Below, piece after piece: positions 60,505 to 61,098 of a stretch of DNA of 64,000 nucleotides. Source of the DNA: Paenibacillus sp. FSL W8-0426 (GTDB taxonomy: Bacteria > Bacillota > Bacilli > Paenibacillales > Paenibacillaceae); contig NZ_CP150203.1 in the NCBI RefSeq assembly GCF_037969725.1, forward strand, positions 5,401,001 to 5,465,000, written 5' to 3'. Position 1 is the first letter of the stretch, and the number at the start of each line of letters is the position of its first letter. Made by a program: the position numbers and the translations under genes. The notes under the pieces were generated by a model. The model saw nothing but the letters and a program-made list of their open reading frames with translations, was not told the origin of the DNA and did not search any database.

Positions 60505-60542
60505 ATATGAATTTTAATGTTAATTCCTGAAGAATATTCAAG

Positions 60543-60655
60543 TGGCGGAACCGACGGGATACTCTCACTTCGTTCGAGACTGCGTAGCTTATGCTTTCGA
60601 AGTAAATGCTCCGACGAACCCATTCCCGGATTCTCATCCCTGATGAATATTCAAG
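60543..60655 (-). repeat. 113-nt unit behind tRNA-Asp: structured repeat plus second copy of the tRNA-Asp 3' end (element A)
   Basis: On the minus strand, the tRNA-Asp gene is followed by a spacer, a core repeat of about 65 nt (60556-60620, beginning GGTTCGTCGGAG and ending GAGAGTATCCC) and then the last 18 nt of tRNA-Asp again, including CCA. The duplicated stretch with flank is 35 nt (60526-60560 against 60639-60673) with one mismatch. The shift is 113 nt. The core is related to element B. Confidence 0.88.
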
Positions 60656-60733
60656 TGGCGGAACCGACGGGATTCGAACCCGCGATCTCCTGCGTGACAG
60701 GCAGGCATGTTAGGCCAACTACACCACGGTTCC
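60656..60733 (-). tRNA. tRNA-Asp (GTC)
   Basis: Anticodon loop CTGTCAC, anticodon GTC; acceptor GGAACCG/CGGTTCC, discriminator G, CCA encoded. Substrate of the QueA/Tgt pathway in this window. Its 3' end is repeated downstream in element A. Confidence 0.95.
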
Positions 60734-60739
60734 ATCTTA

Positions 60740-60813
60740 TTGCGGGGGCAGGATTTGAACCTGCGGCCTTCGGGTTATGAGCCCGACGAGCTACCGGGCT
60801 GCTCCACCCCGCG
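60740..60813 (-). tRNA. Initiator tRNA-fMet (CAT)
   Basis: Anticodon loop CTCATAA. The C1-A72 mismatch and the GGG/CCC pairs in the anticodon stem identify the initiator. CCA not encoded. Confidence 0.95.
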
Positions 60814-60828
60814 TCGTTAAAAAGTATA

Positions 60829-60904
60829 TGGTGGAGGCTGAGGGGATCGAACCCCCGACCCTCTGCTTGTAAGGCAGATGCTCTCCCAGCTGAGCTAAGC
60901 CTCC
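60829..60904 (-). tRNA. tRNA-Val (TAC)
   Basis: Anticodon loop CTTACAA, anticodon TAC; acceptor GGAGGCT/AGCCTCC, discriminator A, CCA encoded. Confidence 0.95.
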
Positions 60905-60913
60905 ATATTGCTA

Positions 60914-61026
60914 TGACCCGTAGGGGATACTCTCACTTCGTTCGAGACTGCGAAGTCTAAGCTAACGAAGTTATCCTCCGACGAACCTTTAGGGTTCTCA
61001 CCCCTTTTATTGCAATGGAATTACAA
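60914..61026 (-). repeat. 113-nt unit behind tRNA-Glu: structured repeat plus second copy of the tRNA-Glu 3' end (element B)
   Basis: Same architecture as element A. After tRNA-Glu comes a spacer, a core of about 64 nt (60924-60987) and the last 15 nt of tRNA-Glu again (60914-60928 against 61027-61041). The shift is again exactly 113 nt. The core folds on the minus strand into GGATA/TATCC, ACTTCGTT/AACGAAGT and AGACT/AGTCT helices with loop TCGC. Cores A and B share 29 identical nt at one end and TCCGACGAACC near the other. Confidence 0.88.
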
Positions 61027-61098
61027 TGACCCGTAGGGGATTCGAACCCCTGTTACCTCCGTGAAAGGGAGGTGTCTTAACCCCTTGACCAACGGGCC
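61027..61098 (-). tRNA. tRNA-Glu (TTC)
   Basis: Anticodon loop CTTTCAC, anticodon TTC; discriminator A; CCA not encoded. A substrate of MnmA/YrvO thiolation. Confidence 0.95.

Follow-up and report, generated by a model that had tools for sequence, protein, structure and literature searches.

RtT-like repeat units behind tRNA genes in Paenibacillus and other Bacillota: anatomy, target rule and a candidate RNA-element reading

Repeat units in the window and in the source genome

The tRNA cluster described here is located on the minus strand of the window (the whole analysed stretch of 64,000 nucleotides from Paenibacillus sp. FSL W8-0426), where it adjoins 5S and 23S rRNA genes. Two of its genes, for tRNA-Glu and tRNA-Asp, are each followed by a single unit, and the order is the same in both: tRNA, spacer, core, and a copy of the T-stem/acceptor 3′ strand of that same tRNA (Table 1). 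Both units, both shifts of 113 nt and both junctions at the last AT of the T-loop had been given in a preliminary description of this DNA and were confirmed from the sequence. For Glu, the T-loop AT is at 61041-61040 and the tail copy starts at 60928; for Asp, the corresponding positions are 60673-60672 and 60560. The tail repeat of 15-16 nt described for Glu was found again (identical block ATCCCCTACGGGTCAT, 16 nt), as was the 35-nt direct repeat with one mismatch for Asp, which extends to 38 nt with a second mismatch. The 29 identical nucleotides said to be common to the two cores were read from the sequence as CGCAGTCTCGAACGAAGTGAGAGTATCCC. The Asp unit is followed by an apparent remnant of another unit, and at the position equivalent to this stretch (CTTGAATATTCTTCAGGAATTA) locus L011 has a longer degenerate second unit. 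Rfam was run on the window at both thresholds and returned tRNA and rRNA, the other matches being low scorers taken for chance.

Table 1. Features of the two units and their tRNA genes (positions within the window)
Feature	Position	Strand	Remarks
tRNA-Glu(ttc)	61027..61098	-	T-loop TTCGAATCCC; tail (AT onward) 61041-61027
Glu-unit spacer	61005..61025	-	Short inverted repeat TTGTAAT..ATTGCAA (by eye)
Glu-unit core	60929..61004	-	Left arm GGGGT (61004-61000), then GAGAA, then P2, P3 and P4; GAGT at end
tRNA-Glu tail, second copy	60914..60928	-	ATCCCCTACGGGTCA
tRNA-Asp(gtc)	60656..60733	-	T-loop TTCGAATCCC; tail (AT onward) 60673-60656
Asp-unit spacer	60641..60655	-	Recurs with mismatch 3′ of the tail copy
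Asp-unit core	60561..60640	-	Left arm GGGAT (60640-60636); GAGT at end
tRNA-Asp tail, second copy	60543..60560	-	ATCCCGTCGGTTCCGCCA
Stretch CTTGAATATTCTTCAGGAATTA	60521..60542	-	Read as spacer and start of a second unit since lost

As the preliminary description had noted, 113 nt leaves no room for an integrase. The length itself did not prove to be fixed: among parsed units the shift ranged from 107 to 193 nt, and the insert was shorter than 100 nt in most of them.

In the 6.9-Mb source genome (one contig), GATACTCTCACTTCGTTCGAGACTGCG with up to three mismatches occurred in seven places, all of them 3′ of a tRNA-Glu or tRNA-Asp gene, and the reversed control gave none. Model R1, a sequence model of 33 cores (alignment A1, Paenibacillus and Fontibacillus units only), found ten full units and one partial unit; a twelfth match (E 0.36) was taken for chance. 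The full units comprised four behind tRNA-Glu, three behind tRNA-Asp and three in tandem behind tRNA-Arg(tct), with the partial one within the Arg array. Degenerate pieces were present in L011 and 3′ of the other tRNA-Arg(tct) gene (L018). Empty sites were looked for in tRNA loci and were found: copies of the same tRNAs without a unit occur in this genome, and the flank of the empty tRNA-Glu gene in L010 resembles the flank 3′ of the unit in L013, which makes L010 a precise empty site.

In 7/7 fetched stretches (L165 2963-11278, L166-L171), which had been chosen for matches at both ends or nearby, two tRNA-Arg(tct) genes point towards each other at a distance of about 7-19 kb. Full or partial units were present at both ends in six of these stretches, and in the source genome one end had only degenerate ones. 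A composite element between the two convergent loci of the source genome was considered and rejected: on visual reading, the intervening ORFs look like those of a methyltransferase, a transporter of the MFS type and a large subtilisin-like protease, and no integrase was seen among them.

Target rule, spread and core structure

Across the fetched loci, 945 distinct tRNA genes were scored for a downstream copy of their own tail. Such copies were found for 139 of the 266 genes with the T-loop TTCGAATCYC (127 had none) and for 1/679 others; since the loci were fetched for holding units, 139/266 is not a natural frequency. Not scored were one tRNA whose T-loop could not be recognised and 51 whose flank was short; six of the 139 copies lacked the left-motif pattern and were taken as units on visual inspection. 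The sole case with another T-loop was a tandem array behind tRNA-Gly(tcc) (TTCGATTCCC) in P. fonticola. In the same loci, genes with the T-loops TTCGAATCCT (0/20) and TTCGAATCCA (0/23) had no tail copy, and none of ten tRNA-Cys genes had a unit. The only tRNA-Gly(gcc) gene with the T-loop TTCGAATCCC (L152) was followed by a degenerate unit, and no unit was found behind the remaining 58 Gly(gcc) genes.

No tail copy stood outside a unit at any of the 945 genes, and tails without a core at random breakpoints were absent among them. Core matches without a tail were obtained in 20 rows, namely 13 degenerate units, all behind the same kinds of tRNA, six apparent false core matches, and one at the Gly(tcc) gene of L077. 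Tails without a core-pattern match, in seven rows, belonged to units with a variant core. The two outcomes that the preliminary description had named as speaking against site-specific insertion were thus not observed. The tail was expected to be that of the preceding tRNA, and this held for 69/76 units, in which the tail located from the core agreed with that of the preceding tRNA at no fewer than 10 of 12 letters (at least 10/12); the nearest of four tail kinds was the unit's own in 73/76. The seven exceptions were mostly one-base shifts or degenerate tails, and in one a perfect tail was missed in parsing.

A pattern scan of genome contigs gave the first 56 loci, with the right end set by the search pattern, and every title was Paenibacillus or Fontibacillus. 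Model R1 had a core match in 69/75 genomes of the genus and in 35 of the 398 genomes of a class-wide sample; four of these 35 lie outside the family of the source genome. By eye, three of these four (G081, G087, G097) had tRNA-linked units; in G219, with one weak R1 match, no tRNA gene was found within the 1.5-kb stretch. R2, a model of left halves (alignment A2, 27 hand-picked sequences, GGGATTCGAA type left out), matched 7/398 genomes sampled across the phylum, and G810 and G463 were new. In G810, which belongs to another class, two tandem units were located 3′ of tRNA-Ser(gct). No tRNA gene was found in the stretch read from G463, which had a single weak R2 match. Units were found in five Bacillota families, that of the source genome included, and behind eight tRNA species: Glu, Asp, Ser(gct), Ser(gga), Ser(tga), Arg(tct), Arg(acg) and Gly(tcc).

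The array behind tRNA-Gly(tcc) in P. fonticola (L054, reverse strand), from which three units were parsed, has a core of another kind, whose left arm, AGCGGGTG.GGAA, is suited to the tail of tRNA-Gly, and is located 3′ of a terminator-like hairpin. Locus L077 may carry a degenerate relative of this unit.

Four helices were proposed for the core: P1 (GGGAU with AUCCC of the tail), P2 (GAAYC..GGUUC), P3 and P4. They were tested on alignment A3, which contains 60 cores, left from a non-redundant set of 75 after the removal by hand of 15 that were divergent, and from which the structure had itself been partly read. In the 60 cores, 94.4% of the cells were paired, versus 32-54% with the partners slid, and 31 cells were changed on both sides, versus 7.1 in shuffled alignments (reached in 0/500). 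The strongest mutual information was that of pair 35-68 (CG in 47 and UA in 13 of 60), and pair 76-82 was standard in 56/59. Five measures of covariation were taken, and two of them did not exceed the shuffled alignments: the number of pairs changed on both sides (4 versus 2.7, reached in 56/500) and further pair types (13 versus 12.0, reached in 143/500). P1 had 96.3% of its cells paired in the 60 cores, with no pair changed on both sides and with 5 bp only in many units. RNAalifold gave no convincing consensus for the 60 cores. UGAGAA was invariant on the left of the cores and GAGU largely conserved on the right, and in other lineages P4 was, by eye, swapped for unrelated yet complementary arms.

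The left arm fitted its own tail at -10.9 versus -9.5 kcal/mol (0/300 permutations; 156/158 units). The extended fit failed for Asp (-7.6 versus -7.6), and the arms of Ser(gct) and Ser(gga) units fitted their own tails worse than other tails; in Asp and Ser(gct/gga) units the arm amounts to about 5 bp only. It is also complementary to the acceptor 3′ strand in Arg(tct), Arg(acg), Gly(tcc) and Ser(tga), but not in Asp and Ser(gct/gga). When nine units were folded as single sequences, two Arg units were strong (z -4.7 and -3.9) and five others, including that of E. coli, were middling (z -1.8 to -2.9). The Asp unit of the window folded like shuffled sequence (z -0.2), as did that of L009 (-0.65), and the minimum-energy fold of the Glu unit of the window (z -2.2) differed from P1-P4. 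The structure is thus supported, if unevenly, and the core is probably a folded RNA. In P. jilunlii L047 and in G355 L135, cores of different tRNA types were observed with a common altered P4 hairpin (AATCTCGTAACG.AGTGAAGAGT), which looks like homogenisation or adaptation to a shared partner.

Likeness to the E. coli RtT repeats

In E. coli K-12, the repeats that follow tyrV belong to the Rfam family RtT (RF00391, rttR), which covers the tyrT/tyrV repeats of that species. Like the Bacillota units, they are located in tandem 3′ of a tRNA gene and end in the tail of that tRNA. Their left arm GGGGAAGGAT is complementary to the tail ATCCTTCCCC, and the same closing helix of left arm and tail is present in the Bacillota units. 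The left motif GGATGAGAA...GGTTCG and the right end (GAGTAAT before the tail) are also alike, and in both groups the copy number varies and uninterrupted empty sites occur. The E. coli repeats differ in their period of 178 nt (from coordinates), in their middle, and in following one tRNA (Tyr, T-loop TTCGAATCCT), whereas eight tRNA species are followed by units in Bacillota.

When R1 was run with filters off on the 2-kb E. coli locus, the four RtT repeats were its four best matches (8.5 to 5.9 bits, E 0.0043 to 0.027; next match 0.79). Conversely, the Rfam RtT model aligned at full length to the second Ser(tga) unit of G087 (24.1 bits, E 0.76), the only match on the loci of six relatives and below threshold; these cross-matches are weak in bits and meaningful only in a small search space. 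In the source genome and the window, RF00391 matched nothing. As no match reached the curated score of 45 bits, the Bacillota units are regarded as relatives or look-alikes of the curated family, not as members.

Matches to RtT were present in 4680/5426 complete E. coli genomes, and 21 of the 12930 matching places were on plasmids. Among the 30 E. coli matches listed, three joined the tRNA end and the outer flank uninterrupted (empty site), and the matches listed had zero to three annotated RtT units each. The RttR annotation of E. coli starts after a gap of 7 nt behind tyrV and ends with the CCA in the tail copy. RtT is reported to have a tandem GA motif (PMC7657543), and UGAGAA and GAGU of the Bacillota cores could be its counterpart. 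One survey places rttR among REP-containing sRNAs (PMC12306157). For two Salmonella serovars, rtT is listed as a VNTR of 175 bp, next to one of 220 bp at a Salmonella tRNA-Gly gene that may be a further RtT-like array (PMC2658671). In the titles and abstracts searched, where subscription journals are thinly covered, no such Bacillota units and no link to RtT were found.

Three options had been offered for the units, and the resemblance to RtT favours that of an RNA element. The best explanation as a whole, to which we give a probability of roughly 0.55, is that each unit is a structured RtT-type RNA repeat located in a tRNA gene's 3′ trailer. At the RNA level, the copied tail (AUCCC...) would be paired with the left arm, which is GGGAU or, in the units of Arg, Gly and Ser(tga), a longer sequence, so that core and tail would resemble an acceptor/T-arm minihelix with the T-loop replaced by the three helices P2, P3 and P4. 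The unit would be co-transcribed with the tRNA, the tRNA processing enzymes would mature the tRNA-like 3′ end, and a small RNA, possibly with a cellular role, would be released; for Paenibacillus, such release and maturation are an extrapolation from the E. coli RttR annotation. By eye, the core is located 3′ of a terminator-like hairpin in Arg(tct) and some Ser(gct) loci, so little of it may be transcribed there.

Lineages, copy number and origin of the units

The nearest core in another genome was of the same tRNA type in 125/141 cases. In a tree of 133 distinct cores (55-100 nt, 75 columns; 78/130 inner branches open), the tRNA-type label changed 22 times, versus 71 with shuffled labels (0/200). 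Switches were seen in P. cellulositrophicus, where Glu units fall within the Asp clade, and in P. jilunlii, where Asp and Glu cores group together; in G087, Glu, Ser(tga) and Arg(acg) units have the right half in common and end in their respective own tails. Within a single genome, identity between cores of different amino acids reached 0.92 at most. Arrays of 2-4 units made up 33 of 211 array entries (which include overlapping loci), and arrays and remnants together indicate that the number of units changes.

The footprint was tested on single units only, with a core start before offset 45 except for Arg(tct); this cut drops Ser(gct) loci with a long terminator-like spacer. At offsets 18-26, agreement of spacer and outer flank within versus between loci was 0.50/0.36 for Glu (41 loci), 0.68/0.47 for Asp (13 loci) and 0.58/0.38 for Ser(gct) (13 loci); at offsets 27-34, it was 0.35/0.28, 0.30/0.27 and 0.18/0.17, respectively. 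The agreement thus ends at about offset 26 and is at background before the core starts (31-43), with a modest excess in Glu, which is what a target duplication would leave. For Arg(tct), a footprint of about 27 nt fails: agreement persists at offsets 27-34 (0.71 versus 0.31, 12 loci), and the longer repeat includes the terminator-like hairpin. A single fixed target duplication was therefore rejected as a general description, although it fits the Glu, Asp and Ser(gct) singletons.

The exact core pattern had no match in viral contigs, and blastn of the Asp unit of the window had none in plasmids and phages. In the source genome, which has ten full units, Cas1 and Y1 transposase gave 0 matches each; among the 75 genomes of the genus, Cas1 was matched in 29 and Y1 transposase in 42; the same-species genome G010 is among these 42 and has three Y1 matches. 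Where tyrosine integrases use att sites in tRNA genes, the tail is duplicated, the junction lies in the T-loop and the tRNA is left intact. The Bacillota units have all three traits in common with such sites and differ in lacking an integrase, in their conserved core and in a tail adapted to many tRNAs. In casposon or Cas1-type insertion at tRNA 3′ ends, the target duplication begins near the tRNA 3′ end; the units are alike in this respect and differ in showing no terminal inverted repeats by eye and in residing in a source genome without a Cas1 match. The Bacillaceae-1 RNA (RF01690) was matched at L145 1354-1421 (G087, 47.4 bits), between tRNAs of a unit-carrying array. It is a small structured RNA as well, but covers a different inter-tRNA stretch and not the unit. 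Other spacers of that G087 array look alike by eye.

That cores mostly follow tRNA type, together with the duplication of about 27 nt in singletons, points to seeding by T-loop-specific duplicative insertion, probably long ago. For an RtT-type trailer repeat, seeding would have been rare and directed to the T-loop junction of TTCGAATCYC tRNAs, with about 27 nt of target duplicated, and the units would then have stayed with that tRNA type. The enzyme may be long gone from the source genome, in which neither Cas1 nor Y1 was matched, while relatives have them. Copy number now probably changes by recombination between the tails, whose copies in the DNA would allow an array to be expanded, shrunk or precisely removed; the fixed length of the crossover option offered earlier was not borne out.

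The units could instead be mini-elements mobilised in trans, that is, selfish DNA that has hairpin ends and plays no role as RNA, whose core is inserted by a cellular enzyme at the T-loop of TTCGAATCYC tRNA genes with duplication of the tail. What the preliminary description had proposed in this direction, an element using tRNA att sites, is borne out as to the same T-loop junction in all lineages, the target-derived tails and the precise empty sites. The duplication of about 27 nt in singletons of three tRNA types, the core switches in P. cellulositrophicus, P. jilunlii and G087, and the Y1 transposases and Cas1 of the genus (42/75, G010 included, and 29/75) would also suit it. Active mobility, the other half of the proposal, is opposed by the type lineages across species (125/141), by the best cross-amino-acid pair of 0.92, which leaves no near-identical pair in one genome, and by the missing matches in viral contigs, plasmids and phages; the longer Arg(tct) duplication and a source genome with ten full units and no Cas1 or Y1 match also speak against such elements. 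We regard this explanation as rather doubtful, though the best placed of the alternatives.

Pure tandem duplication, in which an ancestral trailer and tail were duplicated and kept alike by unequal crossing-over or gene conversion among tRNA arrays, with neither insertion nor function, would account for the 2-4-unit arrays (33/211 entries), the remnants of lost units, the zero to three RtT units among the E. coli matches listed and the 175-bp rtT VNTR of the Salmonella serovars (PMC2658671). It leaves unexplained why eight tRNA species whose tails differ are followed by a core of one kind, as well as the T-loop rule and the covarying pairs, and is quite unlikely. A co-transcriptional switch, in which the left arm pairs with the real or the copied tail and so tunes tRNA folding or maturation in cis, is very improbable: the arm is complementary to both tail copies, at length in Arg(tct), Arg(acg), Gly(tcc) and Ser(tga), but reaches only about 5 bp in Asp and Ser(gct/gga) units, would come too late behind a terminator-like hairpin, and has no tail copy to work with at 127 of the 266 eligible genes in the fetched loci.

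The RtT-type reading can be taken further, to a generalisation that we hold to be unlikely: RtT-type repeats would be widespread minimal RNA elements of bacterial tRNA operons with a guide-like, T-loop-specific duplicative insertion, in which the left-arm RNA would match the target tail, a cellular enzyme would insert the core of about 87 nt with a duplication of about 27 nt, and the element would ride and mature on the tRNA pathway. By the literature (titles and abstracts) and Rfam, RtT has so far been known, without relatives, from a single enterobacterial operon. Should its architecture exist in two phyla behind many tRNAs, under a sharp T-loop rule and with tails that fit each host tRNA, the structure, targeting and function of RtT become comparable and testable. 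In that case an unannotated small RNA may exist in most genomes of the genus, and the units would offer a very small model for elements that settle at tRNA genes without harm.
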